A stretch of DNA of 30,685 bases from Terramyces sp. JEL0728 (lineage: Eukaryota; Chytridiomycota; Chytridiomycetes; Rhizophydiales; Terramycetaceae). The notes under the pieces are model-generated. The model saw nothing but the letters and a program-made list of their open reading frames with translations, was not told the DNA's origin and searched no databases. The position numbers were made by a program, and so were the translations under genes. Positions 160 through 27,970 of this stretch are shown here, piece by piece. Every line of letters begins with the position of its first letter. Positions within the stretch are counted from its first letter, which is position 1. The stretch is from assembly GCA_027603945.1 (NCBI GenBank), contig JADIIU010000143.1:1-30685 (forward strand), in the 5' to 3' direction.

Positions 160-1369
160 TTATTCAAGTGGACAGCAGCGCAGTTCATCACAAGAACTGG
201 GACATTGCAAAACACAGCTCTCGTAATCATCGACAAACTCTGGTTGGACTGTAGAGCTATGGATTCCATGACCCTATGTCAACAATAACTTACATGCATC
301 TCCATTTTGATCAAATCTGCAATTTCCATATAACCAGGATTAGTTTTAGCTAGCACCACGTGCACTGATCCGACTATTTGTGTATCAGATAACTGCCATA
401 CATGAAGTTCATGGATATTTAGTATCCCGTTGATTTTCATCAACTTATTTTTCAGTGTAGTCAGCGATATGCTTTGTGGAGTTGCTTGCAGTAAAATAAA
501 GATTGCTGATCTACATAGCGGTATGGTGGAAATAATAATAATTACCGTAATCAACAGTGACATTATTGGATCCATATAAATTGTCCAATCTTGCTGTATG
601 TAAATAATGATTAAAGTGGATGTAATCACTCCAATTGAAGTCATCAAATCTCCAAACAAATGAAGGTATACCCCGTGTAGGTTCAAGTCACCGTGGTGGT
701 CTTTCATCAATTCCGCTGCCTTGACAACCGCAGTGTTTAATTCCAGTGGGTCCTCTTCCGAATCAGCAACTGCCTGGTATTCAAATCCGTTTAGAGTAGT
801 CTTTTTAGAATGGTTGTGCGAACAAGGTTCGTGTCCATGCTCCACATCGTGAAGCGAATGTTCGTCGGTTATTTCATCATCATGCGAATGTGTGGTGTGA
901 GAATGTCCGTGGCAGTGTGAATGACCATGGGAGTGACCTGAATTAAATTAAATTACCATGAAAGATGAGCATTCCAATGATATTCATTGCTAATCCAGAA
1001 CAAGCGACATAGAGCACAACCCACGGGTTCTCGATATCGCTTGGCTGGATTAATCTCTGTATGGCTTCAATAATTAAAATAAATGACAATGAGAGCAAAG
1101 AACATCCATTAATAAGAGCTCCAATAATTTCCGCTCTTTGCAATCCAAAGGAAAATTCAGGTCCGACTACTGTTTTTGAAATCTAGTTTAATAATGGTTA
1201 CTCTAGTTGCATACAATGCTATTATGAATGAGAAAATATCTGAAAGCATATGAAAGGAATCCGCAACGAGAGCAACTGATCCGTATACATATCCGCCGAC
1301 TATCTCTGCAAAGAAGAATAGGGAAGACAGGCATATCATAATTATCAGCTTGGTTTGCTTTCCATCCAT
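160..1369 (-). CDS. Zinc transporter, cation diffusion facilitator family (ZnT1/Zrc1-like)
   Basis: This gene encodes a proton-coupled zinc exporter of the CDF/SLC30 family, expected in the vacuolar or plasma membrane. Splicing out introns at 1183-1201 (19 nt), 938-956 (19 nt) and 274-293 (20 nt) gives 383 aa. Six membrane segments are visible. The metal site is seen as DSFHMLSD in TM2 and HLFGD in TM5, the HxxxD pairs typical of zinc-selective members. Between TM4 and TM5 lies a histidine-rich cytosolic loop (repeated HGHSH). The last exon restores a GIHSSTVQPEF-type block, as in the C-terminal domain of ZnT1-like proteins, followed by a cysteine-rich tail. The start is the first ATG in frame (1369); the stop is TAA at 160-162. 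It is divergent from the gene at 1742. Family assignment is firm; exact substrate and membrane are inferred. Confidence 0.9.
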
Positions 1370-1378
1370 TTTGCACAA

Positions 1379-1741
1379 AAAATTTGGATAAATTTCCTAC
1401 ACGGAAAAAATTATCACTTTATGTGTCCAGCATGAATAGGCGGTTTCGATCAACGAGCATAAACGGGATTGCCGGATACTGTTCTGCACAATACAGTCGT
1501 TGATTGTGCAACTCCCAAGCTGATTCAGGTGTAATTAAATGAATATCCCCTCAATGCATCAGGATAAATTCGGATGAATGTTGGAAATTGATCCATTCAT
1601 TCGGCGAATAATCTCGAACGTCAGTTGCTATTGCGGACATTCAAAGTTTCACCATTCATCGGAAGAATCTCGGAAAAAGAAACGCGAAAAACAACCTTTG
1701 CACTATAAAAAAGTAAACTTTGAACGATAATTCAAACTAAA
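1379..1741. promoter_or_regulatory. Divergent intergenic region with TATA-like box
   Basis: This 363-nt gap separates the divergent zinc transporter and the gene at 1742. No coding sequence was recognised. A TATAAAA at 1704-1710 lies 32 nt before the ATG at 1742 and could be its core promoter. Short motifs related to GGATGAATG/CATTCATCC recur at about 1573, 1595 and 1652 in both orientations. Function is inferred from position only. Confidence 0.3.
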
Positions 1742-2341
1742 ATGACCGATTCAAACCCAATAGTATATTTGCATTCGCATTCAACCAGCTCTCCAAGCGA
1801 AAATGTCTGCACAGATGAAAAATGTCCTGCATTCAACATTGATCAAATCATCAAAGAAAAGTTTGAAACTTACCGCGAAGAAGAAAAAGAAAGAGACGAA
1901 GATTTCCCAGATGCGTACGAACCATTCTGTGACCTCGCTGAGAATATCAAAAAATTTGCAGTAATGTTGGCCAAAGAAGTTGGCGATGAATTTTCTGGTG
2001 CTAAAGATCATGTTACCAGAGATACCAAGAATGCAGCAAAAGATTTGGCAAAAGAGCTAAAGAATGCTGCTCATGAAGTCAAGAATACAATGAAACAACA
2101 TCAACATGAACGATCAAAAAGAGCTAAAAGAGCTTCAAGATTCCATCCTCATTTCCCATTCCCACCGCCGCCACCACCAGTTCCACCTGTACCGCCTGTA
2201 AATGGTGCTGGTATCCCACCAATTCCACCAGTGCCAAGATTCACTGAAGCAGAAATTGCAGATTTGATTGATCAGGGTGCTCAAGTAGTCATTCACGAAT
2301 CTGATGATGGAAAATCAAGAAAGATAATCATTTCGTATTAA
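1742..2341 (+). CDS. Unknown 199-aa helical and proline-rich protein
   Basis: I do not recognise this protein. It is a single exon of 199 aa. The first 60 residues are acidic and polar. Residues about 65-125 form a charged amphipathic helix region rich in Ala, Lys and Glu (AAKDLAKELKNAAHEVKN), like LEA-type or coiled-coil segments. A basic patch follows (ERSKRAKRASR), then an almost pure proline linker at about 138-165 (FPFPPPPPPVPPVPP) and a short C-terminal segment with alternating hydrophobics. There is no signal peptide or membrane segment. The proline tract could bind SH3, WW, EVH1 or profilin partners. The basic patch could be a nuclear signal. Both ideas are inference. A TATA-like box lies 32 nt upstream. 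Confidence 0.7.
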   Translation: MTDSNPIVYLHSHSTSSPSENVCTDEKCPAFNIDQIIKEKFETYREEEKERDEDFPDAYEPFCDLAENIKKFAVMLAKEVGDEFSGAKDHVTRDTKNAAKDLAKELKNAAHEVKNTMKQHQHERSKRAKRASRFHPHFPFPPPPPPVPPVPPVNGAGIPPIPPVPRFTEAEIADLIDQGAQVVIHESDDGKSRKIIISY

Positions 2342-2544
2342 ATAAACCTGATTTTTGTATATTTGGCGCTTTTATCGAAACATTGGAAATTACGAATTCT
2401 ACCAGAGATTATATACCGTTGGCGGCAATTAAACCGTTGGATATCTCGCGGTGGTGTATACGAATATTTAGATGGGTGATATAGAATAACCACATTGCCA
2501 CTCTAGAAACGTCATTGTGCAAACATTTTCTCTAAATCAAAGCA

Positions 2545-3279
2545 ATGGATGTCTGCAACTTTGTGTCTGGAATCATCTTGGGCATGACTTTTTATGATAT
2601 TGGGTTGACACCGGTTCTATCAGGAAAGAAAATCCCAGTGCTGATGTTCTTGGCTGCTTTCACGGCAACAATATACATTCTGGGGTTTGAAATAATCGCT
2701 AGGTGCCAGTTAGATCCTTCATCCACTGAATATCTGGTAATTGCTCTAATTATGAATGTGATGGATAGTCTGTCGGCAATACCGTACATTTACTCTTTGA
2801 TTTCTCGGTTGGTTGCAATTATGCCTCTCAATCCAAACAACGAGTACTTTTATACAATCATGGTTATACCGCTCGTTTATCCAATTGTAGATATTTACGG
2901 AATCATGGTTCTGTTTGGATGCCCTTTCAACCCGCGCTTAGCCAGCACTCTATTCGCGTTGGGTAATGTTGCTTTTGGAACTACATTCTTTTCTTTGGAT
3001 ATGTGTGTTACGTATTGGCTCATCAAGAACCAGCCAACACCAAATGCCATAGACTTTTTCCCGCTAGTTGGAGGATTAATTTACATTGCAACTGCTCTTG
3101 CTGCTACTTTTGATTCGGCCATTGATGCGTCTCCTCTGTATCTTGCATACGCCATTGATATCTTTTCTTACCAAATTGTTTCAAGGCGATTGACAGGTGT
3201 AATTAAAGGCAGGACATCGAGCGTACAATCTCCAATGAAAATACCTTCTGGTTCAAAAACTGACAATTCCCTTTATTAA
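2545..3279 (+). CDS. Seven-span membrane protein, tandem family member 1
   Basis: This is a 244-aa single-exon integral membrane protein and the first of four tandem paralogues, each starting MD[VI]CN. Hydrophobicity suggests seven membrane segments, at roughly residues 5-22, 31-49, 62-90, 95-118, 130-152, 168-185 and 190-212, with a short Ser/Thr-rich cytosolic-type tail. Motifs shared with the paralogues include GKKIPVL before TM2, LISRLVAI after TM3, YPIVDIY in TM4, GNxAFGxTFFxLD in TM5 and YQxVSRRL at the end of TM7. I do not recognise the family. The layout resembles a receptor or small transporter. This copy is the most divergent: its TM5-TM6 loop has NQPTPNAID where the others have SKQELVD or SRQELVD. 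Function is unassigned. Confidence 0.85.
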   Translation: MDVCNFVSGIILGMTFYDIGLTPVLSGKKIPVLMFLAAFTATIYILGFEIIARCQLDPSSTEYLVIALIMNVMDSLSAIPYIYSLISRLVAIMPLNPNNEYFYTIMVIPLVYPIVDIYGIMVLFGCPFNPRLASTLFALGNVAFGTTFFSLDMCVTYWLIKNQPTPNAIDFFPLVGGLIYIATALAATFDSAIDASPLYLAYAIDIFSYQIVSRRLTGVIKGRTSSVQSPMKIPSGSKTDNSLY

Positions 3280-3442
3280 ATGGAGGATGGTCATATTTCT
3301 ATACCAGACGCAATTGTTTATAATCTGCGTAGCTGATGCTCACTGAAATGGAATCTATATCTCCACATGAATAGTACAATAATATAAAATATTTCATGAT
3401 ATAATCGAAAGAGAACACGTCATCCTAATATTTTAAAAATTA

Positions 3443-4171
3443 ATGGATGTCTGCAATTTTCTATCTGGAGTTGTAATAGGAATCACATTTCATGATATCG
3501 GGCTGAAACCAGTATTAGCAGGAAAAAAGATTCCAGTGTTGATATTCCTGTCTATAGTTACAGCGTTCTTTTATGTGTTGGGATACGAGATACAAGCGCG
3601 AGTTCCCCTTCAGCCTGGCTCGACAAGTTTTATTGCAGTGGGAATTGTGATGAATATTATGGATATGACGAGTTCAATTCCATACGTGTGGGCACTGATT
3701 TCCAGACTAATTGCGATTCTTCCAATGCACAACCACAAGCATTTACTGTATATTTGGATGATTGTTCCCTTTCTATACCCAATTGTAGATATCTACAACA
3801 TACTGGTACTATTGGATTACCCTCTGGATCCAGCTCTTGGACCGCTACTGTACGCAATTGGGAATATAGCGTTTGGGATCACGTTCTTTTTCCTTGACTT
3901 ATTGGTTACTTATTTCCTCTTCAAATACAAATCAAAGCAAGAACTGGTGGATTATTTTCCTGTGATTGCTGGAATGCTTTTCATCGCGAATGCCCTCACA
4001 GCAACATTTAATCCATGGATTGATGCATGCCCATTCTACTTGGCCTATGCAATTGACGTTTTAGCTTACCAGCGAGTATCAAAAAGATTATGCCATGTTA
4101 TTTCGGGCATGGACAAGAAAAATAGCTCCAAAGTAAATTCATTTGCGCAGACAGTGCCGAATTACAACTGA
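3443..4171 (+). CDS. Seven-span membrane protein, tandem family member 2
   Basis: This is a 242-aa single-exon paralogue, 163 nt downstream of member 1 on the same strand. It has the same seven-segment plan and block motifs (MDVCNF at the start, GKKIPVL, YPIVDIY, GNIAFGITFFFLDL, VDYFP, YQRVSKRL). The TM2-TM3 loop reads YEIQARVPL, as in member 3. The loop after TM5 is KYKSKQELVDYFP. The tail is short and polar (KKNSSKVNS). There is no obvious signal peptide, so the first hydrophobic segment probably serves as signal-anchor. The copies keep full-length frames despite much amino-acid divergence, so all appear to be under selection. The biochemical role is unknown. Confidence 0.85.
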   Translation: MDVCNFLSGVVIGITFHDIGLKPVLAGKKIPVLIFLSIVTAFFYVLGYEIQARVPLQPGSTSFIAVGIVMNIMDMTSSIPYVWALISRLIAILPMHNHKHLLYIWMIVPFLYPIVDIYNILVLLDYPLDPALGPLLYAIGNIAFGITFFFLDLLVTYFLFKYKSKQELVDYFPVIAGMLFIANALTATFNPWIDACPFYLAYAIDVLAYQRVSKRLCHVISGMDKKNSSKVNSFAQTVPNYN

Positions 4172-4475
4172 TAATGTGGGAATAATAAAGCCTGGTTCAT
4201 CTTTACGGAATCCATATTAAAATTGCACTACGCTAAAATTAGGGGTTTCCTTTGATATTTACGCAAAGTGAGATTGAATTGTCATTAAAATTGCGACTAT
4301 TCATTGAATAACATTTTGAGAAGCAAATATTTCTTTGTAGCGATATACTACTAACTCGCCACCATGAGACTAAACCCCATTGAAGCTGCGCAGAGAATAA
4401 TGTATTTGCTATAAAAACGTTTCCAGTCCTCGTAGCTGGAACACGTCATCCATACTTTTCGCCTTATCTGCCAAA
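4172..4475. promoter_or_regulatory. Intergenic region upstream of family member 3
   Basis: This 304-nt gap lies between members 2 and 3 of the seven-span array. I see no gene. A TATAAAAA at 4410-4417 lies 58 nt before the ATG at 4476 and is a plausible core promoter element for member 3. A 16-codon frame with a Kozak-like GCCACCATG start (4363) ends at that box and is probably upstream of the transcription start. Other sequence is AT-rich without clear structure. Confidence 0.3.
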
Positions 4476-5222
4476 ATGGACGTGTGCAACTTTCTTTCAG
4501 GTGTAGTGCTTGGCATCACCTTCCACGATATAGGAATTGGGCCGATTCTAGCAGGTAAACGGATCCCAATATTGATTTTCGTGGCGGTCCTGACTGCTTT
4601 CATTTACATTCTGGGATATGAAATACAAGCTCGCGTGCCACTAGATCCATCATCGCCAGCCTATATAGGAATAGGAATCGCTATGTCGATTATGGATGGC
4701 ACCTCGGCAATCCCATACGTATATGCGCTTATTTCACGCTTGGTAGCAATTTTACCAACAAACAGGTACAAATCGTATCTTTATCTATGGATGATTGTCC
4801 CAATTTTATATCCCATTGTGGATATTTACACTGTGCTGGTACTGGTAGGATACCCAGTTAATCCGGCATACGGACAATTCCTTTACGCGATTGGCAATAT
4901 TGCGTTTGGAATTACGTTCTTTGTGCTTGACCTCTGCGTAACTTTTTGGCTATTCAAGTACCAATCCAAGCAAGAGCTTATTGACTACTTTCCACTGTTT
5001 GCTGGTGTACTTTATATTGCAAATGCTATTGCTGGAACGATTGATACCAGTATTGATCCTTGTCCGTTTTACCTTGTCTATGCTATTGATGTGCTTGCCT
5101 ATCAGCAAGTGTCTAGAAGAATGTGCAATATGATGGGGGCAAAGCCTTCTAATTCTATTGGAGTGTCTGGCAAGCCAAGTACTGTAAATACAAAGTCGGT
5201 GATGAAATCTGATGATGACTAG
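4476..5222 (+). CDS. Seven-span membrane protein, tandem family member 3
   Basis: This is a 248-aa single-exon paralogue with the same seven-segment topology and block motifs (MDVCNF start, GKRIPIL, YEIQARVPL, PYVYALISRLVAIL, YPIVDIY, GNIAFGITFFVLDL, YQQVSRRM). Its C-terminal tail is longer and polar (Ser/Thr/Lys rich, ending KSDDD), with many possible phosphorylation sites. It is closest to members 2 and 4 by eye. Members of this array share no recognisable enzymatic signature. A receptor or transporter role would be a guess based on topology. Confidence 0.85.
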   Translation: MDVCNFLSGVVLGITFHDIGIGPILAGKRIPILIFVAVLTAFIYILGYEIQARVPLDPSSPAYIGIGIAMSIMDGTSAIPYVYALISRLVAILPTNRYKSYLYLWMIVPILYPIVDIYTVLVLVGYPVNPAYGQFLYAIGNIAFGITFFVLDLCVTFWLFKYQSKQELIDYFPLFAGVLYIANAIAGTIDTSIDPCPFYLVYAIDVLAYQQVSRRMCNMMGAKPSNSIGVSGKPSTVNTKSVMKSDDD

Positions 5223-5365
5223 CCTCAATTCGTATGGAAATAAATATCTGTTTGTGTAAATTATATCTACACATAATTTTTCGTATTTGACGGAAATATA
5301 TTTTAATTCTATGGTAGATTTCATTTAGCATACGCGATTCATTTCAATAATCTGCCTCGCGATAG

Positions 5366-6121
5366 ATGGACATTTGCAACTACTTGTCAGCAGTAGTTAT
5401 AGGCATGACACTTAAAGATATTGGTCCAACAGCGATTTTACAAGGAAAGAAAATACCCATTCTGATATTTTTAGCTGTAATCACATCATTCTTTTACATT
5501 TTAGGGTATGAAATCCAAGCACGCATACATCTAATACCAAAAACCCCCAGTTACACAGCGGTAGAAATTATGATGAATATCATGGATATGTCGTCAGCGA
5601 TACCATATGTTTACGCCCTAATATCGAGACTTGTAGCTATCATGCCATTAAATGAATATAGAAATTACCTGTACATTTGGATGATTGTTCCGATCCTGTA
5701 TCCCATCGTTGATATTTATGACATACTGCTACTGCTAAACTTTCCATTGGATCCAACGTTGGCGTCGTTATTGTATGCAATTGGAAATATAGCTTTTGGA
5801 ATTACATTCTTTTTCTTGGATTTGCTCGTAACAGCTTGGCTGTATCAGTACAAATCCAGACAAGAACTAGTAGACTGCTTTCCTTTAGTTGCAGGTATTC
5901 TTTACATAGCAAATGCCATGGCTGCAGCGCTGGATCCAAATATTGATACCAGCCCATTTTACCTGGCATATGTAATCGATATATTTGCATTTCAACAAGT
6001 ATCAAGAAGATTGTCACTCGCAGTAGGCAGAAACAGCAGTAATGCAATCAGCATGTCAACATCGATGAGGGAAAGATCCAATATTCGAATGGAAATGAGT
6101 AGTGACATTTCAAATTTATAG
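5366..6121 (+). CDS. Seven-span membrane protein, tandem family member 4
   Basis: This is the last copy of the array, 251 aa, single exon, starting MDICNY. The conserved blocks are present (GKKIPIL, YEIQARI, PYVYALISRLVAI, YPIVDIY, GNIAFGITFFFLDL, YQQVSRRL equivalent FQQVSRRL). The tail is Ser/Met/Arg-rich (NSSNAISMSTSMRERS). It converges with the hydrolase gene on the other strand; only 41 nt separate the two stop codons. No function can be assigned from sequence. Confidence 0.85.
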   Translation: MDICNYLSAVVIGMTLKDIGPTAILQGKKIPILIFLAVITSFFYILGYEIQARIHLIPKTPSYTAVEIMMNIMDMSSAIPYVYALISRLVAIMPLNEYRNYLYIWMIVPILYPIVDIYDILLLLNFPLDPTLASLLYAIGNIAFGITFFFLDLLVTAWLYQYKSRQELVDCFPLVAGILYIANAMAAALDPNIDTSPFYLAYVIDIFAFQQVSRRLSLAVGRNSSNAISMSTSMRERSNIRMEMSSDISNL

Positions 6122-6162: not shown

Positions 6163-7362
6163 TTATTCGTCTTTTTGAACATGGATATTAACCAGGCCAG
6201 GTGCTATTGGAGTACCGACTGTAAACCTTTGAACACAATAGTCTTTTCCGTCGATGCTCTTAGTTTCTTTAGTATGCGCAGGCTCAATGAAATCTGCTGA
6301 ATGTCCAACAGGACTAAATGTGATTAATTCAATCGGAGTTTTCACGTACTTGAAACAAGGAAATTGCATTCCTCCCTGAATATCTGCCAAATCAGTTTTG
6401 AATTCCAAGTGCAAGACCAGATTGGAATCGGAAGGTAAAGGAGATTCAAAATTCAAAGTGGAGCCGGCAACAGTTGCTTTTTGCGAGTATCTGAAAGTTT
6501 TGCTATCAACCTGCCAATTTTTGACAGAATCTAGGCCATCAGGTGTGCGCAATACAGTTGCCAAGCAAGAAGAAATTTTGATATGCTCGTTTGAATCTAA
6601 AGTAAGGCTGGCCAATTCATCTTTTGTTTTTAAACTATCGTTAACATTTAATTACGCTATAGAAACCGCTCCGCTGAACCCTGTGTACTCTTGATTTGGA
6701 TTGAAAATGGTAAGAGTGTATTTGATTGGCTCCACTGGGGATTCATGGCAATCCAGTAATTCCAGCCAGTAAGCAACTCTTTCAAAAGTAGCTTGATCAT
6801 AAATAGTCCTGTGTCCACCTATGTAATGAACCGTTTCAAACAGCCCTTCACCTCTCTTAACTTCATGTCTATTATCATCAGTGTATCCCATCAAATTCAA
6901 ACTTGGGCAGTTTAAAGTTTTGGAAAACACTTCCATACCTTCAGGAATTGTACCGTTGAGCAACACAAACTTTGGTCGAGGTGACAGCAAACTAGACACC
7001 ATGCCTGCTACCATTGACCCGTTGGAAAACCCAAGAATACCAACAAAGCTGTCATCCCAGTGCTCCCTTACTTTTTCCAAGGCAGGCAACAAATCCAAAT
7101 CAACAGTAACGGCTGGGAACCCTTCATAGACGACCCTTGTTTCTCCATTGGTTAAATGGTCACAATTTTCAAACCATCTGTTGAAGCTTGGAGAGCCAGA
7201 TTTCAGCATTGCCTCTGGAAGCCATTCTTTTGGGAACTCTAATGGACCGTCAATAAATACCAATTCGTATTTATTTTTGAGGATTTCTTCAAGTGGTTCC
7301 AATGTTTTTTGCATGCGTTCTTTGCATCCTGCCATTCCGTGTAAACATAAAATCCTCTTCAT
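6163..7362 (-). CDS. FSH-type serine hydrolase with a C-terminal M1-aminopeptidase-like N-domain
   Basis: One 21-nt intron (6635-6655) joins two frames into a 392-aa protein. Residues 1-205 match the family of serine hydrolases (FSH/OVCA2, alpha/beta-hydrolase fold): the oxyanion-region motif LCLHGMAG at the start, nucleophile motif GFSNGS with Ser113, an acid in GYTDD (about 162-163) and His184 in GGH. These hydrolases usually act on short esters or thioesters in the cytosol. Residues about 212-392 look unlike this fold. YTLTIFNP...GFSG, LTLDSNEHIKI, FESPLPS and then FPCF resemble the beta-rich N-terminal domain of M1 aminopeptidases, stopping well before the HExxH catalytic domain, which is absent. 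The assignment of the second domain is by eye and less sure. GFSNGS replaces the commoner GFSQGA-type nucleophile elbow. Confidence 0.8.
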
Positions 7363-7644: not shown

Positions 7645-9736
7645 ATGGGAAATGCAATTTCGCAACAGTACGATATAAAGCAAACTCTGGCGACATCAGG
7701 CCCAGGTGATTTGTGGACAATCAGCAACGCAACCAAGAAACAGACTCAAAAACAGCTCTCAATCTTCATGTTTGATAAATCAAAAGTGCAAAAATTGGTT
7801 CCATTTGCAAAACAGGAGCAATTGAAAAAAGAAACAGAATATATATCTGAAATATTGAAGCAATCCGTTCAGCAATTGACTAGATTGAGGCATCCGTGTA
7901 TCTTGCATGTAACGGAAGCATTTGTGGATTTAAAAACAGTGTACTGCTTTGGGTCTGACCCACTAGCAGGCAATCTCTCTACTTTGCTCTCAAGCCCAAT
8001 GGACGAATTGGAAATACAAGCAGGGTTATTGAGTATTTGTAAAGGGTTGCAATTCCTACATTCCAACGGCATTGTTCACAATTGCTTGATTCCTTCGTGT
8101 GTTTTTATCGATCAAAAGAACGATTGGAAAATTAGTGGGTTTGAATTTGCTTCTAGAGCGGGTAATTTATCAATCAGAACGTTTCCTCAGTACTGTTTGC
8201 CTTCTGTTGCCTACTTTGCACCTGAAGTTGTCCTAGAAGATAGATGCGAACCGAAGAGCGATGGTTATTCATTTTAATGGTAGTATATTCATTAGGAGCC
8301 CTCATCTGTTCACTTTTCAACAAAGGCAAACCACATTTATCTGTTACAGTTCAGAATTTCAAAGATGTGATAATCCAGCCAATTGAATTATCTTACTTGC
8401 CTGCATTTCTTGAATCTACTGTAAGGAGAATGCTGGCAGTTGAAATTACTGTGCGGATGGGATTGAACGAATTCTTGACCACAGAATATTTCAACAGTAA
8501 TACCGTTAATACCATCAAATACCTGGATAATTTTATTGAACAATCGAATAGCGACAAAGCCGCCTTTTTGAAGGGATTGCCAGGTCTTTTACCTCTATTT
8601 TCAAGTTCAACATTAGTAAAGAGGATATTGCCCGTTTTGGAGCAGGAAATGAAGAACCCAGCACTAATCAATTTCCTATTACCAAACATACTTTTTATTG
8701 CAGAGAAAACGAACGACAATGAATTCAAAAAACATATTTTGCCTTGTATCAAAATATGTCTCTCGAGCAAAAACAGCGACATCATTCTGGCAATTTACTC
8801 AAAGATAGAATTAATATTACAAAAGTGCGATATAAAGGAGTTGACTCCGTATATCTTGGAAGCTATTGACAATGCCGATATGCAGATACAAACCACTGTT
8901 TGCCAATCGTTGGCGAAAATAGCAGCAAACTTGGACTATCACACAGTCAAAAATGTAATTAAAGTTAATCCAGATATATGACAAAGTCCAACTGATATTC
9001 TCTACTGCAAAAGTGGTAGGTATTCAAGGAAATACGTTATTAGCAATCAAAGCGCTCGTGCCCAAACTAGACGCAGTAGGTTTTATTAATCTAGACAACT
9101 GTCGGCAAAAACTTGCTGCCAATGCTGGAACAACGCAACAAACCGCATCAATCACTGATATCACTATATATAAACATATACCAAAAATCAAGTGAAATTG
9201 TAGATTATTTAGTAATTGGAACTATAATTATACCCCAACTGTGGGTCTTGACATGTCACCAGCATATTACAATGCAGAATTTCAAGAATATTTGCAGCGC
9301 AATTGATGGATTGAGCACCAGTGTAAGACAGCAAAAATTAAAACAAATTGAACAAAGCAAGGTTGAAAATAGTGCTGTAAAAGATCATGCTGCTTCAAAG
9401 AATCATGCGAAAATACAAGCTGCGCCAGCAGCAGTAGATCCTTCAGTGTCTTTGAATTTCTGGAATAGACTGGATAATATGGCACTAAATGACCAGAAGC
9501 CGTCAAATACAAACCAGGTTCAGTCGTTTAATAACCATGTGCCCACCATTCCACCTCCAACTAACCCAAGAGCATCAGCCGTTCAAAGTACACTTGCACC
9601 AGCATTCAATTCGCAGCAACTTAATGTTCAAATGCAGCCGCTAGTTCCTACTCGAGCCACTCAATTCACTCCAACACAATCAAGTATGAAGCGGGAGCTA
9701 TCGAAAAAAGAAATCCGAGAATTCGACTTGCTATAA
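7645..9736 (+). CDS. SCYL2: SCYL2-type pseudokinase (clathrin-coat associated)
   Basis: Removing introns at 8264-8283 (20 nt), 8955-8973 (19 nt) and 9076-9094 (19 nt) gives 677 aa. Residues about 8-290 form a degenerate protein-kinase domain. The start MGNAISQQYDI and the block QQLTRLRHP are characteristic of SCYL2/CVAK104 and fission-yeast Ppk32. Catalytic residues are missing: HRD reads H145-N-C and DFG reads GFE (165-167). The APE region is kept (YFAPEVVLED). A helical HEAT-like region follows to about residue 520, then a Gln/Pro/Asn-rich disordered tail containing NFWNRLDNM. In other organisms SCYL2 binds clathrin and adaptors in TGN-endosome traffic. The initial MG raises the possibility of N-myristoylation. 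An upstream exon cannot be excluded, because animal proteins have extra residues before MGN. It is convergent with taxilin, with 39 nt between stops. Confidence 0.88.
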
Positions 9737-11122: not shown

Positions 11123-13382
<2,260 letters not shown>

Positions 13383-15535: not shown

Positions 15536-16982
<1,447 letters not shown>

Positions 16983-17288: not shown

Positions 17289-17693
17289 ATGGAAAAAGAG
17301 TATACACTGGACGACTTGACTCTGGCAGAAAAGGAACTGACAGAAATGCTACAGAAAAAGAAGCAGCTATTCAAAAACCTTGACTCGATTGAACAAAGCC
17401 TGTACAATTTGGAAACCTCGTATATTGAAGATTCGACTTATGGGAATATAATAAGAGGCTACGAAGGCTTTTTGAATTCTAGGACGCCGAATAGAAGAGC
17501 GAGGACAATAGATCAGGACCGTATTTTCTCTCAGTCGTCCGTTTCGTTTTCAAAGTTGCAGCAAGAGCAAGATGCAATAATCGACGGTAAGTTTCGATAA
17601 TAAATAGATGAAGAAGAGTATATTGAAAAAAAGAAAAAGAAAAAGACCGATTCAGCCAGAAAGAAGCGGGTCATACATTCAGATGAAGATTAA
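17289..17693 (+). CDS. EAF6: NuA4 histone acetyltransferase subunit Eaf6 (MEAF6-like)
   Basis: A 21-nt intron (17587-17607) gives 127 aa. Eaf6/MEAF6 is a small scaffold subunit of NuA4 and other MYST acetyltransferase complexes in the nucleus. Evidence is the N-terminal coiled coil (LAEKELTEMLQKKKQLFKNL), the core block TSYIEDSTYGNIIRGYEGFL, and the FSQSSVSF motif that follows. The last exon adds an acidic-then-basic tail (DEEEYIEKKKKKK ... KKRVIHSDED) that could serve as a nuclear signal. Without splicing, the frame stops after GKFR. It converges with a receptor-like gene, with stops 37 nt apart. Confidence 0.9.
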
Positions 17694-17730: not shown

Positions 17731-19203
17731 CTATTCGATTGTTGTTTGCTTCAGCGCTGTCATTTTGAGTGTTTGTTCGGCGATAGTTTTGTCAGAAGCT
17801 CCAACGTACATCCGATTTGTTTTTGGTTTGATCAACTCTTCCGTAAAATGCCTCAGATAAGCATAAAGCAGCAGCGTTCCACTGATCTGCAGCTGTTCGA
17901 ATAATGAAAATGCCCCTTCCAGCCCTAGGATAGCATCGTCACTGCCCAGCATATTCGTTATGGAATAAATGTAGTAAAGGATCCCATAAGCTATTGACCC
18001 AGCTACCTGTAAAAATATCAAAAAGAACCCTGTCTTGTATTTCCACAGCAATTGACTACGAGACATTGCAATTCCCTTTTTCGACTCATTAAATTTGAAT
18101 TGATATAGAATCTTGCATAGCATAAAAATGATGGGGACGAGATCAAAGCAGCATGCGATACCGCTGTAAACATTTCCGTACGTATGGCTAAAATGTGATA
18201 TATCCAGCAGGTCCATAAACGGCTGAGCAACGACTTGGTCGGTGATTACCAATACATTCGCCACAAACCGAACAATGTAGAGCAGCACAAATACGGCGTA
18301 CATGGAGAGCTTTAATGAGGAGGACAGGTTTAGCAATTGAGAGAGAATGTTTGCAGAAGCGAGGTTTCTCAAACAATTGTTGAACGACCCGACATATATT
18401 ATAATAGCTAATGTAAGCATCGCGTCCTCGGTTGGAATATACCCGTAAACGTTATACATGTATCCAATCGTCTTTATCAGGTAAACAGCTTCGATTGAAA
18501 GAATTAACGGCGTCTTTCTGTCATTTAACCTTTGGAGGTAGTATCCTATAAAAGATAATGCAATCAAAATAGTGCTAATAAATCCTGCTAATCCACTAAT
18601 ATCCGCTGCTGTCCTGTGCAGAGGAACGAATTCCAGTGATGGCTGGTAATTAGTCCACTCAACATAGTTTTTGGCTCCTACAATCTTTGTGATAGAAATA
18701 CTAACATTTCCTAGCGACTCTGTAGAGTAAACACCTTGATTGTCCAGGAGAACCTGTTCTTGCAAGATTGTGCAATCCATATCATTGTAAATAGTGAGCA
18801 AATCGCTCGTGCAAATAAACCCATAATTACACTTTCCGTTATTTAAATAGAATGCGCTTTGAATGTACGGAAATAGAGTTGTGACTGTCAGGTTACTGGA
18901 ATCAAACAGGTCAATTTGACAGTATGAATGGCTATTGGCCGTGTAAACCGGAGATGACTGATAATCCCATGCTCCTCCAAGGTAATTACTCTGCCAGCTA
19001 TGTCGATATTCAGTTTGCAGAATATCGATGGATGACGTGCAACAACCAACTCCATTTTCAGTTGGATAATTCTCCATTCCACAATATCCAACGTTATTCA
19101 GCCAATAATAATCTGGAGCAAATGTTTCATTAAATACTAAAAATGACACTGGTGTTCCATTGCACTCTGTTTGGCTCCATATTGATTGAAATACTAGTGA
19201 CAT
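17731..19203 (-). CDS. Receptor-like seven-span protein with eight-Cys ectodomain, copy 1
   Basis: This is an intronless 490-aa membrane protein, paralogous to the gene at 19420-20880. The first ATG in frame gives MSLVFQSIWSQTEC, matching the paralogue's start. Residues 1-200 form a predicted extracellular domain with eight cysteines at 14, 41, 54, 55, 95, 125, 131 and 144, several N-glycosylation sites (FNET, SNLT, GNVS) and motifs APDYYW, GCC and GKCNYGF. Seven hydrophobic segments follow (about 202-222 up to 440), including LCKILYQF, LLWKYK and LLLYAYLRHFTEEL, then a Lys/Thr-rich tail. The plan is that of a cell-surface receptor. I do not recognise the family, and the hydrophobic start is too short to call a classical signal peptide with certainty. 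Confidence 0.82.
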   Translation of the reverse strand: MSLVFQSIWSQTECNGTPVSFLVFNETFAPDYYWLNNVGYCGMENYPTENGVGCCTSSIDILQTEYRHSWQSNYLGGAWDYQSSPVYTANSHSYCQIDLFDSSNLTVTTLFPYIQSAFYLNNGKCNYGFICTSDLLTIYNDMDCTILQEQVLLDNQGVYSTESLGNVSISITKIVGAKNYVEWTNYQPSLEFVPLHRTAADISGLAGFISTILIALSFIGYYLQRLNDRKTPLILSIEAVYLIKTIGYMYNVYGYIPTEDAMLTLAIIIYVGSFNNCLRNLASANILSQLLNLSSSLKLSMYAVFVLLYIVRFVANVLVITDQVVAQPFMDLLDISHFSHTYGNVYSGIACCFDLVPIIFMLCKILYQFKFNESKKGIAMSRSQLLWKYKTGFFLIFLQVAGSIAYGILYYIYSITNMLGSDDAILGLEGAFSLFEQLQISGTLLLYAYLRHFTEELIKPKTNRMYVGASDKTIAEQTLKMTALKQTTIE

Positions 19204-19419
19204 GATTGACAAGGACAAGGAAAAAAGACAAGCAGATTGACACAATGGAATTTAGGATCGACATTGTTTCCATTGTCGAGTATATACTCCAAGAATTTTG
19301 TAACGATTTGAATTCGTGATGCACATTTCTTGCATGCAAAGTATTGTGATCGCTCTTGAGATACGAAGAGGTATTTAAACGCCGAATAAGAAATTGCAAC
19401 GAGTAGATTTATTCAGATC

Positions 19420-20880
19420 TTACCACTGGAAAGAACTGTTGATCATTGTCCCTTTCACTGCTGGGGCTGTCTTTTCCGCCGTTACATTCTTGAAAGTACT
19501 TGGACCCACTAATTCCTCTGTGAAATGCCGTAGATATTCATACAAAAGTATTGTGCAGCTAATCTGTATTTGGTCAAAAAGACAAAAGATACCCAACATT
19601 CCCAGCCATGTGTCATCACTGCCCAACATGTCAGTAAGAGCGTAAATGAAAAACAGTGCAAAATAAAAGATAGTAACAACCACTTCCAATATAATCAATA
19701 ATACCGGTATCTTGTATTTCCACAGCAGCTGCATAGTCGACTTTTTAATTCCTTTTTTTTGTTCCTTGATTCCAAATTGCAGCAATATTTTCCACAGCAT
19801 GAAAACAATAGGAACTAAATCAAATAAACACGAAAATCCGTAATAGAAGTTGTTTATCGCGTTTCTTACTATCGTTATCTCTGTCAAGTCTGTAAAATAG
19901 GTGAAAATATCGTCTATTCTTTCTATGGTGCACATTGTAAAGTGGAGTAGGTAGCAGAGGACAAGAACAGTATTGAGTATGTAAATGGTGAATTTTGATT
20001 GGAATTGAAGCAACTGTGAGAGCATTTTTGAACTGATCAAGTTGCAAAATAATTTGCTAGCTAGTCCTACGTGGGTCAATAAAAAGACTGTAAAAAGTAT
20101 TCCATTACTCGTTAATATTCCATACGTAGTGTATACATATCCAGCAACTTCAAGCAAATAGCAGATCTGGATTAACAGGATTGGCAGGGATTTTCGCTCT
20201 CTTACTCTTCTTGAGTAGTTTTTAGTAAACAGCAAAGCAATAAATGCTCCCAGAACATAGCCAATAAGCCCGAATGTATCTATAAAGGTGTTGTGAGTGG
20301 GATAGTACTCGAGGGCTGGTTGATACGTTGTCCAACTAATGTAATTCTTGGCTCTTGTAAAAGTAGTTGATGAAATACTAATATTTCCCATCGTCAAGGA
20401 AGAGAAATTTGCATTGGTTGTGATGTCGATCTGTTCTGTCTGTGTTTTACAATCCACGTCATCAAAAGCTACCAACTGTGTATTTGTACATTTGAATCCA
20501 TAATTACATTTACCGTCATTTAAATAGTAGGCTCTTTGGATATACGGGAACAATGTGCTCATATTAAAGGTGTCGGATTCGTAAAAATCAATTTGGCAAT
20601 AGGTGTGCGTGTTTGAGCTTGAGAATGCGGCCGATTGATAATCCCAATCGTCTACAATGTATGTACTCTGCCAGCTTACAACATTATCCGTTGCTGGTAG
20701 GTCAATGGATGACGCGCAGCATCCTGCTCCAGTGGTGGTAGGAAAATTCGCTTCTCCACAGAACCCCACGTTACCGTACCAATAATAATCAGGAGCAAGC
20801 GTTTCGTTGAATACAACAAATTTTACTGGTACGCCTTTACAATCTGTTTGGCTCCAAATTGACTGAAATACTGTTGTCAT
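19420..20880 (-). CDS. Receptor-like seven-span protein with eight-Cys ectodomain, copy 2
   Basis: This is an intronless 486-aa paralogue of the preceding gene on the same strand, 216 nt upstream of it. The first ATG gives MTTVFQSIWSQTDC. All eight ectodomain cysteines fall at exactly the same residue numbers as in copy 1 (14, 41, 54, 55, 95, 125, 131, 144), and the blocks APDYYW, GCC, TYCQIDFY, GKCNYGF are shared. The seven membrane segments and the motifs FDLVPIVFMLWKI, QLLWKYKIPVLL, MLGSDD and YLRHFTEEL are also conserved. A receptor role is inferred from topology. No catalytic motif is present. Confidence 0.82.
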   Translation of the reverse strand: MTTVFQSIWSQTDCKGVPVKFVVFNETLAPDYYWYGNVGFCGEANFPTTTGAGCCASSIDLPATDNVVSWQSTYIVDDWDYQSAAFSSSNTHTYCQIDFYESDTFNMSTLFPYIQRAYYLNDGKCNYGFKCTNTQLVAFDDVDCKTQTEQIDITTNANFSSLTMGNISISSTTFTRAKNYISWTTYQPALEYYPTHNTFIDTFGLIGYVLGAFIALLFTKNYSRRVRERKSLPILLIQICYLLEVAGYVYTTYGILTSNGILFTVFLLTHVGLASKLFCNLISSKMLSQLLQFQSKFTIYILNTVLVLCYLLHFTMCTIERIDDIFTYFTDLTEITIVRNAINNFYYGFSCLFDLVPIVFMLWKILLQFGIKEQKKGIKKSTMQLLWKYKIPVLLIILEVVVTIFYFALFFIYALTDMLGSDDTWLGMLGIFCLFDQIQISCTILLYEYLRHFTEELVGPSTFKNVTAEKTAPAVKGTMINSSFQW

Positions 20881-21014
20881 TATAAACAATGAAAAATAAT
20901 TCGATATTGTTCAGCAATCAATACAATGATTATTCTAAAAATTGTGGTAGATCTACAATAGGAACATTCCTCTTGATTAGGACCTGCTAACACTTTCGGT
21001 ATGATCTGCTGCAA

Positions 21015-21811: not shown

Positions 21812-24800
21812 ATGAGCTCCGTAGGCAAACTCAACATCAATTCTTCTGCAACAGAGATTCTGAATGCATGCAAATCAGATCTCTCCGTCCTCGAAAACAT
21901 CATCAATCTAATGAACGAAAAGGTTGCCAAGTTGGACAAGAAGGATCAAACTGCTACCAACCATGCTTTAAAGGTCTTTGAAGAGCTTGCAAACAAGGAT
22001 ATGATTAGAGCGCAACCATTCTTGATCAAAACCTTGCCAGATGTGCTAAATGCCTGCGGTGACAAGAAAGCTACTCCTGAAACCGTCGCTAATGCACAAA
22101 ACGCCGCTAAAGCGATTACTGACAAGATTTCGCCAAATGCCGTGCCCGAATTACTCCCATATCTGTTCCAAGCTCTTGATATCAAGTGTAGATGGCAAAC
22201 TCGTGTGGCTGCTTTGAACGCCATTACTGGGTTTGGTGATCATGCTCCAGAACAGTTAGGTTTCGCCCTTCCTTCAGTAGTCCCTGAAGTATCAAAGTGC
22301 ATTGTAGATCTTAAAGCTGAAGTCTGTGCTGCTGCTGAAGCTGCCATGGTTGCCGTTTGTGACGTTGTTGGTAATAGAGATATTGAACATTTAACTTCTG
22401 ATATCTTGCGTTCTATTACTCACCCTGAAGAAACTGAAGAAATCATGCACAAATTGGCTGGAGTAACATTTGTACAATCTGTAGAATCCCCAGCCTTAGC
22501 TATGGTTACTCCACTTTTGATTAAAGGTATTTGTTGATTAATCCAAGGTTTGAACTCCCGCTCAAAAGCTACCGTTCGTCAATCTGCTGTTATTATCGAC
22601 AACATGTCCAGATTAGTTGATGATCCATTAGATGCTGCTCCGTTCATGCCATTGCTTATGCCTGTCTTGGAAAAGGCTGCTGATATGGTCTCTGACCCTG
22701 AAGCCAGAAACATTGCTGAAAGATCTGTTGCCCAGCTGAGATCTTTGAATGCTCAAGTAGAAGAAGCTCAGTCAAGACAACAACACATTGAACACTCCCG
22801 TGTCTACGATGCTGTCAAGAGTAAAGTTTCTGCCAAAGGAGCGGATTCCTATCTTTCCCACGTCGCCAATTTGTGTTGCTCGTTGATGACTGTCCGCAAA
22901 TTCAACAAATCCCACTGGAAGGAAATTGAAGAACACTTGGCCGTCATTGACAAACAAAAGGCTGCTTCAGTGATTGACAAACTTCGAACTGAATGTGAAG
23001 CTATGGCCAAACCACTGCCAGGAAAAGACGAAGAAGATGATGATCCAGCCCTTGAACTTTGCAACTGCCAATTTACTTTGGCTTATGGTACCAAGATTCT
23101 TTTGCACAACACTAAACTCAGATTGATGAGGGGTGGAAAGTACGGTTTGCTTGGTGGCAACGACTCTGGCAAAACCACTCTCATGCGTGCTATTGCCAAT
23201 GGTTCTGTTGAAGGTTTCCCTGATCCAGCTGAAGTCAACACTGTTTTCGTCGAAGCCGATATTTTGGGTGAGCTGTCCCATTTGTCCTGTGTCGATTATA
23301 TCATGGCTGATCCTGCTTTGGAAGGTATCCCAGAAGACGAAGTATTATCCATCATGGGCACTGTCGGCTTCACTGCCGACGGAAAAGCTAAACCAACCCA
23401 CCCAGTATCTTCCCTTTCTGGTGGCTGGAGAATGAAATTGGCTATGGCTCGTTGCATGTTGCAAAAGGCAGAAATCTTGCTTTTGGATGAACCTACCAAC
23501 CACTTGGATGTTATCAACGTCGCTTGGGTAAAGAATTACATCAACTCGTTGACCAATGTCACCTGTATCATGGTATCTCACGATTCTGGATTCTTGAGAG
23601 ATTGCTGCACCAGTTACATTCAAATCAAGAACTTGAAACTCAAGCAGTTCAAAGGAACACTTGATGACTTTATTAAAGCACATCCTGAAGCGCAATCCTA
23701 CTTTAACATCAAATCGTCCAAGCTAAAGTTTAGGTGATTTTTATTAATTGTAGTTTCCCACAGCCAGGTGCTATTGAAGGTATCAAATCCCGTTCAAGAG
23801 CTTTGATGAAGATGTCGCACTGTAACTTTACCTACCCAGGCAACGACAAACCTACTCTGTATGATATCTCTATTCAAGTATCTATGGCTTCCAGAGTTGG
23901 CTGTGTTGGTGAAAACGGTGCCGGAAAATCTACCATGATTAAAGTGTTGACTGGTGAAGTAGTCCCACAAGAAGGTGATGTCTGGATGCATCCTAACGCT
24001 CGTGTTGCTTATGTAGCTCAACACGCTTTCCACCACATTGAAGCTCACTTGGAAAAGACTCCTAACGAATATATCAGATGGAGATACGAAACTGGTGAAG
24101 ACAAAGAATCATTGGTCAAAGTTTCTATGGTAATTGTTTCTGATCAAAGGCATACACCCCAGAAGAAGAAAAACTCCAAAAGGTTCCATTCGAATGGAAA
24201 GATCCTGTTTCCGGAAAGATAGTCAAGAAAACCATCGGTACTGTCGGCGGCACCCGTAGAAAGGCAAAGGGCGGTGACTTTGAATACGAAGTCCGTTTCT
24301 TGAATGAAGCCCCAACTGCCGATGGTACCTATGTCCCACACAAGACTTTGATCAAACAAGGTTGGGAAAAGGCATGTAAAGCTATTGATATGCGTATTGC
24401 ACAGTCATCAGGTTTACAGATGAGGGCTTTGTCATCTGTTAACGTTGAAAAGCATCTCAACGATGTTGGTTTGGAGCCTGAATTTGCATCCCACACTCGT
24501 ATGGGTGCTTTATCTGGAGGCCAAAAAGTTAAAGTCGTCTTGGCTGCTGCGTTATGGAACGAACCGCACATTTTGATTTTAGATGAACCTACCAACTACT
24601 TGGATCGTGAATCTTTGGGTGCATTGGCATCTGCTATCGAAGCATATCAAGGCGGTGTCGTTATTATTTCCCACCACAATGAATTCGTCTCTACTTTGTG
24701 TACTGAAGAATGGGTTATGGATGCAGGCCACTTGACAACCAAGGGACAATCTGGATGGATGGACCGTCAAGACGACAAGATCAATGATCAAGTCAACATT

Positions 24801-24978: not shown

Positions 24979-25010
24979 CATCTGCATTCTTTGCGAGTTC
25001 TATGCCAAGA

Positions 25011-25832: not shown

Positions 25833-25868
25833 TTCGAAAATTTCAATATTAAAAATAAAAATAGTTTA

Positions 25869-26569
25869 TTAAAGACGTAGCCGTTTCTTTGTTGAAACTG
25901 GTGATTCCAAGAGTGGCGGCAGTCGCTTTGGGGTTTTATTTACATCTGCTGGAATCTTGTACTGGATTGGGCTATCTCGTATTTTTCTTGGGGTTTTTAC
26001 GGGTGTTAGGAGTTCAATCGAAAGTCTTTTCAAAGAGGTATTTTGTTTGGTAGTAACTTGCTTGCTGAAAGCATCTGTAACTTGCCTGGTAGTTTTTACT
26101 GGAGGTTCAGCACTTTTAGATCCTGGCTCTTTTTTAAATAACGTGCGAGGAAGGATTTCTTCCTCTTCATCTGATTCTTGATCCATCCATTTCATTAAAT
26201 CTACTCCAGCCATCTTTTCAAACATTTCCTTTCCTTTCTTTTTGCTAATCGTCTTTGGCTTTGTCTTTGTCTTTGCAAGTGATTTTGCAAGTGATTTTGA
26301 TGGTGACTTTGGCGACATTAGGTTGAACTGCAGCTTTTGTCCTTTATTCTCCCTGTTCAACTGCAATAACCGCCTACATTAGAATAAACGAACCGTCGGG
26401 TAGTTTTATAATCATGTTGCCACTCATCTTCCAACAGAATCTCGTACAGTTTGTCGGTGATATAGACCGGGATTGTATGTGGTTTGAATGGCGCTTTGTG
26501 GATATCGACGAGTGAATCGACTTTTTCTAGGATCGACAATAATATTGAATCTTGTTTTTCAGTGATCAT
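25869..26569 (-). CDS. Unknown basic protein, 226 aa
   Basis: A 20-nt intron (26374-26393, GT..TCTAATGTAG) joins two frames into 226 aa. The donor GTTCG is atypical. Residues 1-65 are helical and acidic-hydrophobic (MITEKQDSILLSILEKVDSL, LYEILLEDEWQHDYKTTRRR). The rest is disordered and basic, with the internal repeat KSLAKSLAK, a stretch KTKTKPKTISKKKGK, an acidic cluster DQESDEEEE, and several SP or TP sites (LMSPKSP, LLTPVKTP, NKTPKRL, LESPVS). This composition fits a nuclear, possibly CDK-phosphorylated protein. I recognise no family. The gene is followed by the gene at 25011-25832 only 36 nt downstream on the same strand. Confidence 0.65.
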
Positions 26570-26892
26570 GTCACGAAAAGGGAAAATGTTTATTCAAAAA
26601 TAAAGTATAAAGTCGGATACCCTGGTTCTTGTAATGATACTTTTGTTTCAGGAATTGTGGTTTTTCAAATTCATGAAGGATATGTAGTTGATAAGTATAA
26701 TACACTTTGAATGCTGTGAAATAACACATTCATGAATTAAATTGTAACAAATGGCATCGCTTGTGCGCTATCAAGATCTGTACGGTGGTTAAAAGTCTAA
26801 ATGAGCAGTTTAACAGGAATACAATCCTAGAGCGACATTAAAGTTTATTGAAAAAGAGTACAAGAAATAAGTGATTACAGCCAACGACAATA
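26570..26892. other. Intergenic region, no recognised gene
   Basis: This 323-nt AT-rich stretch contains a 13-codon frame on the plus strand at 26752 (starting MASLVRY) that I could not extend convincingly through any 19-22 nt intron. It probably holds the promoter of the minus-strand gene at 26569 and the 3' end of the small gene at 26893. No RNA gene was seen. Confidence 0.3.
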
Positions 26893-27057
26893 CTATGTAT
26901 GGATACTAACAAGCCTAGTAAAGACAGTAAAAGTGCCAAATATGCAAATCGAAGCAAGGCTTAATCCAATCACTATAGCTGTATATATTTCTCGATTTGT
27001 GTAGCGCTTGTGGTATATCTCCATCAATGGATCGTTGTGTATCTCTAAATCTTTCAT
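26893..27057 (-). CDS. Small single-span membrane protein, 54 aa
   Basis: A complete frame from ATG (27055-27057) to TAG gives 54 aa: a polar charged N-terminus (MKDLEIHNDPLMEIYHKRYT), then a clear membrane helix (IYTAIVIGLSLASICIFG) and a short tail with one arginine. The split between a charged head and one membrane helix is typical of small mitochondrial or ER membrane subunits, but I cannot name it. Support is composition only; it may be a chance frame. Confidence 0.45.
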   Translation of the reverse strand: MKDLEIHNDPLMEIYHKRYTNREIYTAIVIGLSLASICIFGTFTVFTRLVSIHT

Positions 27058-27317
27058 TTTGAAGTTTTATTGGTGACTTTCCGTGCGGGGAAATTCCACA
27101 AAATGCGATAAAAATTATGTAAGCAAACTCATTGGCAAAAGCTCAAGGTGTATAGTACTGGAATGGTGCCTGTGGGCTATCTACATTAGATTCATAACAC
27201 TACTACCTCTAACCCACGACTATCCAAAAGTGCGTCATGAAACACTACTTTGTATACCTTACTGAATCCGTGCTTCTCACATACAATAAAACAGATACCA
27301 TTTATTATCCAGATTAA
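27058..27317. promoter_or_regulatory. Intergenic region upstream of the velvet gene
   Basis: This gap separates the divergent small membrane protein and the velvet gene. A 60-codon plus-strand frame at 27083-27265 has no protein-like pattern. No known site stands out. If the velvet protein begins at the second ATG (27399) the region extends to 27398. Confidence 0.25.
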
Positions 27318-27970
27318 ATGGTTTTCCGGCAATGGTGGATCCGCATAGACCATATTTGGGAAGCCGAACAAAAAAACCTAAGCCTACTTTCCAACCAAAT
27401 GATTTACCGATTCACAGTGCGACAGCAACCACTGCGAGGTAGAGAATGCGGACTAACCAAACCATATATCAAAAGCCACATGTATTTGATATTAACTTAG
27501 ATATCCAATACCAGTATTCCAGATTGAATTTGAAAATGGAATAGGTAAAAAACAGGTAAGTTTATCTTATTCAGTTGTATCAGTATACCTTTCTTTGTAA
27601 CATTGTTCTAGTTGGAGAAGATGATAATCTGCAACAAACACTGATTGCAAGTCGATCTGCACATAGGACCTTTCAGGAAAACTTGCTGGGACAGACTACG
27701 ATTGAAGGAAGAGTGCTAGTAGATCCCGAAGACGCAAAACCAAAAATATTCTTTATATTCAACGAGCTGTACATAAAGACACCTGGCGCATATCGATTCA
27801 AGTGCCATCTAATTGATACAAACCAGCCGGATATGATTGTAGTGGAACTCAGTACCGAATTGTTTCATATCTATAAACTGAACGAGTACAAAAAGGAAAA
27901 AGTGCATACTGTATTGACCAAATCATTTGAATTGCAAGGAGTGGAATTTAAACAGAAAAAGAATTCTTGA
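27318..27970 (+). CDS. Velvet-domain regulator (fungal)
   Basis: Two 19-nt introns (27482-27500, 27556-27574) give 204 aa from the first ATG, or 177 aa from the ATG at 27399. Velvet proteins are fungal transcription regulators with an NF-kB-like DNA-binding fold that link development and secondary metabolism. Seen here are the opening strand YRFTVRQQPLRGREC, then YPIPVFQIEF, the block LLGQTTIEGRVLVDP, the core IFFIFNELYIKTPGAYRFKC, and the ending LSTELFHIYKLNEY followed by SFELQGVEFKQK. These match the velvet domain in order. The protein is almost only the domain, with no long disordered regions as in VosA or VelB. The insertion between the two halves is short. Confidence 0.85.

Follow-up and report, generated by a model that had tools for sequence, protein, structure and literature searches.

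Introns of 19–22 nucleotides as the apparent rule in a fungus-like genome, with the branch point at a near-fixed distance from the donor

Very short spliceosomal introns have been described from a small number of eukaryotes. The nucleomorph of Bigelowiella natans contains more than 800 introns of 18–21 bp, a narrow size range (PMC10245619); Stentor coeruleus has introns of 15–16 nucleotides (nt), with the branch-point adenosine (branch A) at position +10 in 90.9% of them and an A+U content of 75.6% (PMC9505925, PMC10245619); and Mikrocytos mackini has 224 introns of 16–17 bp and 17–19 identified spliceosomal proteins (PMC10245619). The introns of Paramecium and Nyctotherus, also ciliates, are longer (PMC5014332), and the shortest introns given for Trichomonas measure 23 nt (PMC12316389). 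Here, we describe introns of 19–22 nt in conserved genes of contig JADIIU010000143.1 (C143; 30,685 bp), the whole of which is referred to as ‘the window’, and in the 15.0-Mb assembly of 231 contigs to which it belongs.

The initial annotation of the window named chlorarachniophyte nucleomorphs and Stentor as precedents for such sizes; the mikrocytids (16–17 nt; PMC10245619) had been omitted. The present introns share their narrow range with those of the B. natans nucleomorph, which is the remnant of a nucleus, with introns in about 300 genes, whereas we are dealing with a 15-Mb genome and an estimated 17,000 introns. They resemble those of S. coeruleus in being uniformly tiny, in having a fixed branch A and in belonging to a free-living organism, and the commonest S. 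coeruleus intron likewise begins GUAAUU (PMC9505925). That species, however, has no strong branch consensus, in contrast to the YTAAY found here, and Slu7 and Prp18, both present here, are entered as N/A for it (PMC9505925, Table 1). Introns are extremely uniform in M. mackini as well, but there they are few and the spliceosome is small, whereas the present genome is intron-rich and has kept the step-two factors. Among fungi, a survey of 644 genomes gives Cryptococcus (mean 63 bp) as its example of short introns; the genes of Cryptococcus neoformans are likewise intron-rich, with introns about three times longer than those described here (PMC8476143). No report that introns of about 20 nt are the norm in fungi or related lineages was found in open-access titles and abstract openings, which, with the subscription literature lying outside that scope, is weak evidence; a word search of papers dealing with Paramicrosporidium, sanchytrids, Aphelidium and rozellids likewise found nothing on intron length.

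Judging from sequence, we consider it highly probable that the segments are spliceosomal introns of the U2 type, reduced across the genome to a functional floor. The window contains 35 of them between positions 274 and 27574: fifteen of 19 nt, fourteen of 20, five of 21 and one of 22. These totals match those of the initial annotation. All 35 have GT-AG ends and 32 begin with GTA, the other donors being GTT (at 8264 and 26374) and GTG (at 23734); A+T content across the set is 72%, in a genome with a G+C content of 39% in a 200-kb assembly sample. Lengths leave a remainder of 1 on division by three in sixteen introns, of 2 in fourteen and of 0 in five, and each of these last five contains an in-frame stop. 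The example given originally, at 16231–16249 in the Walker A region of RPT1, is exact, and no second exact copy of it exists in the assembly. The assertion that spliced genes sum to whole codons was also borne out: frames were open in 10 of the 11 genes checked together, and that of the LMBR1-like gene was open in separate models.

Thirty of the 35 introns came from a dynamic-programming model restricted to 15–30 nt and to GTA or GTG donors. The remaining five, which this model missed, were added by hand: 12947 from MCM5 homology, 8264 from a looser model, 26374 from the candidate list, and 274 and 27556 as the ends of the span given in the initial annotation. Three picks of the restricted model were dropped as wrong, namely one of 17 nt in MCM5, one of 16 nt in the velvet gene and one of 16 nt in an open reading frame (ORF) of unknown function. 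The looser model (GT-AG, 12–150 nt, indifferent to motif and length) yielded 38 introns, of which 13, all of 19–21 nt, belong to the final list; the other 25 were rejected as long, odd-sized or antisense models.

Support comes from conserved proteins that excision restores. Across spliced RPT1, MCM5 and eEF3, 13 of 15 junctions are gap-free in alignments. RPT1 (minus strand) has seven introns, at 16947–16967 (21 nt), 16872–16891 (20 nt), 16814–16833 (20 nt), 16710–16731 (22 nt), 16231–16249 (19 nt), 15811–15830 (20 nt) and 15661–15680 (20 nt), numbered 1–7 in gene order. The spliced protein has 434 residues against 433 in PSMC2/RPT1, and residues 14–431 align with a single one-residue gap away from the junctions; introns 2–7 thus fall, gap-free, inside the alignment, and the junction of intron 1, which contains in-frame stops, lies at residue 5, beyond the aligned part. 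MCM5 (minus strand) has five, at 13214–13233 (20 nt), 12947–12966 (20 nt), 12756–12776 (21 nt), 12054–12073 (20 nt) and 11714–11732 (19 nt). Four of these junctions are gap-free against yeast Mcm5, including that of intron 2, which was placed by homology, overriding the model; intron 3, with two in-frame stops, falls in a gapped, variable stretch. All three eEF3 introns (plus strand; 22527–22547, 21 nt; 23734–23753, 20 nt, with the GTG donor; 24130–24149, 20 nt) are gap-free against Elongation factor 3A.

Domain scores rise in the same way. The zinc transporter (CDF) gene (minus strand) scores 48.5 bits against Cation_efflux from one exon and 150.4 bits when spliced; its introns 1 (1183–1201, 19 nt) and 2 (938–956, 19 nt) were found by both gene models and fall within that one match, and the junction of intron 3 (274–293, 20 nt, branch A at +15) lies within the ZT_dimer match of the spliced protein. 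For the kinase-like gene (plus strand), the Pkinase score rises from 62.0 bits unspliced to 78.5 spliced; the junction of its intron 1 (8264–8283, 20 nt, GTT donor), which was taken from the looser model, is within the match, and introns 2 (8955–8973, 19 nt) and 3 (9076–9094, 19 nt) rest on motif and frame. Together, the GT-AG ends, a YTAAY branch site suited to the canonical U2 small nuclear RNA (snRNA) and excision confirmed by homologs point to the spliceosomal nature that had been proposed.

Length preferences were examined with a frame-free motif scan (GTA[AT]...YTRAY...AG) that picks up 21 of the 35 introns in the window. In the window, it returned 14 matches at 19 nt against 1.5 in shuffled sequence and 8 against 2.0 at 20 nt; the 4 against 2.1 at 21 nt is not notable on its own, and at 58 nt there were 6 against 2.0. 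The 200-kb sample consists of a fixed 10-kb stretch from each of 20 larger contigs (C1, C6 ... C96). There, the sole large excess was at 19–21 nt (152 vs 41.3 in shuffles; 53, 66 and 33 vs 14.3, 13.2 and 10.3 at the three lengths), with smaller ones at 17 nt (20 vs 12.3), 18 nt (25 vs 13.8) and 22 nt (24 vs 14.0). Tiny introns thus appear as the general rule rather than a local peculiarity, as the initial annotation had supposed. At longer lengths, once candidates using the same donor or acceptor as a tiny candidate were excluded, counts were 260 against 264 at 23–45 nt, 126 against 127 at 61–71 nt and 86 against 89 at 73–80 nt. A frame-bridging test that is blind to motif and length, applied to the sample and the window with five control dinucleotide pairs, gave 10, 10 and 8 GT-AG events at 19, 20 and 21 nt; against this total of 28, the controls gave 5, 9, 2, 2 and 6 for the three lengths combined, and only GT-AG peaks.

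The element that this analysis adds is the fixed position of the branch point, at +14 or +15. We counted sites in 231 kb (sample and window) having a GTA donor and YTAAY followed by AG, with 1–4 nt between Y and AG and with sites carrying a G directly before the AG omitted. Branch A was at +14 in 100 cases (5.7 expected) and at +15 in 77 (5.0 expected), together 177 against 10.7. Position +16 held 16 (4.8 expected), and +13 and +17 were at background (5 vs 4.3 and 5 vs 5.1). A strict count anchored on CTAAY showed the same step, from no donors at a distance of 12 to 32 at a distance of 13. In the window, a TRA branch core is found in 31 of the 35 introns and, if the last core is taken, puts branch A at 14 in 21 introns, at 15 in eight, at 16 in one and at 17 in one, the last having an alternative reading at 14. 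The usual arrangement is a YTAAY-like branch, then a pyrimidine, usually 2–3 nt, and AG. The initial annotation's view that donor and branch site are barely separated was therefore right and can be refined to 13–14 nt. Among the 100 donors with A at +14, +4 is A in 56 and +6 is T in 62, and +5 is G in 18 (genome G, 19%); with A at +16, +5 is G in 6 of 16.

Across the whole assembly, the pattern GTAANN{2,30}CTAAYNTAG has 792 matches against 381 for its reversed form, and 85 of the first 100 matches (contigs C1–C5) are 19–21 nt long. From the excess at 18–22 nt in the 200-kb sample and the capture rate of 21 in 35, we arrive at roughly 17,000 introns genome-wide, an estimate rather than a count, with which the window density agrees. 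Identical or near-identical introns recur every ~29.3 kb in C3 (93–145 kb) and every ~31.3 kb in C4 (272–304 kb), suggesting large segmental duplications.

The genome encodes parts of a conventional splicing machinery. One U2 snRNA (C70:14443–14635) scores 140 bits against a cut-off of 46, with the GUGUAGUA region intact; at the curated Rfam cut-offs, this locus alone matched, and nothing did in the window or in the 20 sampled loci. Slu7 (C3) and Prp18 (C7) both score above cut-off, and their open spliced proteins align to the solved structures of Slu7 and Prp18. In Stentor the two factors are undetected, a trait of that case rather than a defining one, and a similar loss, which had been expected, is not the case here. 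Their gene structures were read directly from sequence: the introns of Slu7 measure 20 and 20 nt, with one junction gap-free and the other a few residues from a gap, and those of Prp18 measure 21 and 20 nt. In yeast, Slu7 and Prp18 are linked mainly to long branch-to-AG distances, so intron geometry does not explain their retention. The 20-nt Prp18 intron (L029:1790–1809, C7) is GC-AG with a GCAAGT donor, showing that a non-GT donor occurs even at such a size. This intron bears on the proposal that the segments are not spliceosomal at all and are instead removed at the DNA level, like the eliminated sequences of ciliates, or skipped by ribosomes. Their sizes may overlap those of known tiny eliminated or skipped elements, but the uniform GT-AG ends in the window, the YTAAY branch at a fixed place, the canonical U2 RNA and the GCAAGT case make either process hardly credible as the explanation.

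If these are U2-type introns, their geometry has consequences for spliceosome assembly. Human extracts require a donor-to-branch distance of about 50 nt, because in the pre-catalytic human B complex the U6-donor helix and the 14-nt U2-branch helix are about 15 nm apart, a span that would take up roughly 52 nt of intron (PMC6692369). With 13–14 nt from +1 to branch A, helices of the human type would collide on the RNA. Instead of acting side by side, U1 and U2 would then bind successively or recognise their sites across the longer exons, and both the U6-donor and the U2-branch helix would be shortened. The same source leads us to expect that Smu1 and RED would be retained. The weak preference for G at +5 fits a donor helix that is shorter or altered, and the short gap between branch and AG would leave no polypyrimidine tract and hence no classical U2AF65 site. 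A rigid ruler with A at +14 or +15 that sets the floor would require the spliceosome to assemble by a compact route.

Several results weigh against the reading of introns reduced genome-wide to a spliceosomal floor. The geometry alone is observed, and compact assembly is what we infer from it. Four of the 35 window introns have no TRA branch core, although by eye an A at 14–15 fits, and ruler positions +10 and +11 hold about twice the shuffled counts (11 vs 4.8 and 10 vs 5.3). Neither a family search nor two patterns recovered U6, and a family search did not recover U1; neither result is taken as absence, and 5.8S was not found either. Two one-mismatch matches to the first U6 pattern were rejected because they had no U6 context, and the second pattern gave none. 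There is also the possibility that tiny introns are accompanied by a sizeable class of longer ones invisible to these tests. With overlaps of tiny candidates removed, motif counts in the 200-kb sample still exceed shuffles at 46–60 nt (208 vs 177) and at 72 nt (22 vs 12.1; 22 sequences, all distinct, from loci L006–L025), the latter surplus being taken for chance among 58 bins. The frame-bridging test is insensitive, having recovered only one of the 35 listed introns among 49 window events, and its silence at 23–160 nt, where the normalised GT-AG rate lies inside the range of the five control pairs, therefore rules out no broad minority of longer introns. Set against this are the 19 introns of five conserved genes (RPT1, MCM5, eEF3, Slu7 and Prp18), all of 19–22 nt, with none longer in the aligned parts; zero of 19 places the 95% upper bound on longer introns near 15%. 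The sharpest excess beyond the tiny class, nine sites at a donor-branch distance of 47, was rejected as double counting, as all nine have a nearer tiny-intron donor. We therefore regard a hidden longer class of real size as very unlikely. The 200-kb scans revealed no second size class of similar weight, and an intron-length mode above 25 nt, which the initial annotation had named as the result that would speak against it, does not appear in the motif and frame tests.

Returning to the tiny introns themselves, eEF3 offers a view of their presence in relatives, of which we considered 120 of 7806. Among those spanning introns 1–3, sequence runs unbroken, with no gap within 8 residues of the site, in 42 of 42, 85 of 87 and 73 of 74, respectively, against a gap-free rate of 84.6% (6756 of 7990) at other positions. 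If predicted from genomic DNA, the unbroken relatives would be without these introns. Some relatives' proteins, by contrast, end exactly at the intron 2 site, as if intron-bearing. One of them, P0001, ends in KFK-YIALT followed by a stop, which in junction phase corresponds to AA/GTA.AT.GC.CT.AC. plus a stop codon; should this be TAG, the segment would be an intron of 19 nt whose branch reads CT.AC. In P0003, P0006 and P0008, the protein ends at the codon expected from a GTAA, GTAG or GTGA donor. Tiny introns are thus probably common to a wider uncultured clade, as judged from protein ends rather than DNA. In scans for named relatives, viral contigs gave none and prokaryote contigs gave remote ABC proteins only.

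A natural length variant was also encountered. Two stretches, L002 (C199:3323–6428) and L003 (C111:33441–36545), are 98.9% identical over 3.1 kb (20 mismatches, blastn) and contain the same intron in two lengths, GTAAATGTTTGCTAACGATAG of 21 nt and GTAAATGTTGCTAACGATAG of 20 nt. When spliced, both yield 136 codons; unspliced, they yield 94 and 108. Substitutions between them are nearly all transitions, with G or C more often in L003, which suggests haplotypes or recent duplicates under a biased mutation process. Weak family-search matches had offered these loci as U6 candidates; they were rejected as near-duplicate protein-coding stretches.

The affinities of the organism are judged from its genes. 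The description ‘fungus-like’ fits the presence of velvet, eEF3 and M36 fungalysin genes, which we take to be fungal-type markers. The eEF3 has a HEAT domain, and class C G-protein-coupled receptors with ligand domains are also present; 30 of the 84 long ORFs of the 200-kb sample were scanned for domains. The known distributions of these genes suggest a zoosporic fungus or a close relative. A protist unrelated to fungi could also carry eEF3 and velvet, in which case tiny introns would be less surprising for the clade. No ribosomal DNA was recovered (a family search for 5.8S found none in the assembly, which is not taken as absence), the listed eEF3 relatives are nearly all without an organism name (one is labelled as a Myxococcaceae metagenome-assembled genome), and the best solved relative of RPT1 is of the PSMC2 type rather than a yeast-type homolog. 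Against such a protist stand velvet, the HEAT-domain eEF3 and M36 fungalysin, together with a best MCM5 match to yeast Mcm5, and we consider it unlikely. The fuller picture, which we hold with moderate confidence, is of a fungus-like lineage, probably zoosporic, that is rich in introns and not reduced, and in which the great majority of introns lie at a physical floor of 19–22 nt set by the +14/+15 ruler, U2, Slu7 and Prp18 are kept, the spliceosome assembles by a compact route unlike known human structures, and environmental relatives carry tiny introns at the same sites.

A probable fungal relative thus joins the handful of lineages in which introns of this kind are known. If this placement holds, no other member of that group stands nearer to yeast and humans, whose spliceosome structures have been solved. 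The minimum donor-branch distance, estimated at about 50 nt in human extracts (PMC6692369), becomes a testable evolutionary variable. Gene finders and RNA sequencing mappers built around larger introns can be expected to fragment many of the clade's genes.

The remaining window introns lie in other genes. Taxilin (minus strand) has four 19-nt introns, numbered 1–4 at 10591–10609, 10150–10168, 9993–10011 and 9878–9896, each with its junction inside the region of the spliced protein that matches Pfam Taxilin. Five occur in the LMBR1-like gene (minus strand): introns 1 (14994–15012, 19 nt) and 2 (14619–14638, 20 nt) fall where the spliced protein matches Pfam LMBR1, introns 3 (14156–14175, 20 nt) and 4 (13888–13906, 19 nt) were found by both gene models, and intron 5 (13744–13762, 19 nt) rests on motif and frame. 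Both gene models also gave the 21-nt introns of the FSH1 serine hydrolase gene (6635–6655, minus strand), with an internal in-frame stop, and of the NuA4/EAF6-like gene (17587–17607, plus strand), with in-frame stops and a junction outside the Pfam match. In the velvet gene (plus strand), intron 1 (27482–27500, 19 nt) rests on motif and frame, the best Pfam Velvet stretch being downstream; intron 2 (27556–27574, 19 nt), the span end of the initial annotation, leaves the frame open, the model alternative being one of 16 nt at 27545–27560. This intron and that at 26374–26393 (20 nt, minus strand, GTT donor) are the least secure. The latter, the weakest entry, joins two frames of an unknown gene (25869–26569) into a 226-residue ORF that has no Pfam match.

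The remainder of the window contains several other ORFs. Four tandem ORFs of ~242–251 residues at 2545–6121 have no apparent introns and no Pfam match, and by eye resemble related multi-pass membrane proteins. Two tandem ORFs of ~500 residues, at 17731–19251 and 19420–20910, appear related by eye and have no Pfam match, and a 607-residue ORF at 28325–30148 has weak matches to DAP3/STAND-type NTPases. In the 200-kb sample, long ORFs at L025:687–7350 carry condensation, AMP-binding, carrier and beta-lactamase-fold domains and form a nonribosomal peptide synthetase-like cluster, which adjoins a weak FSH1-type hydrolase match.

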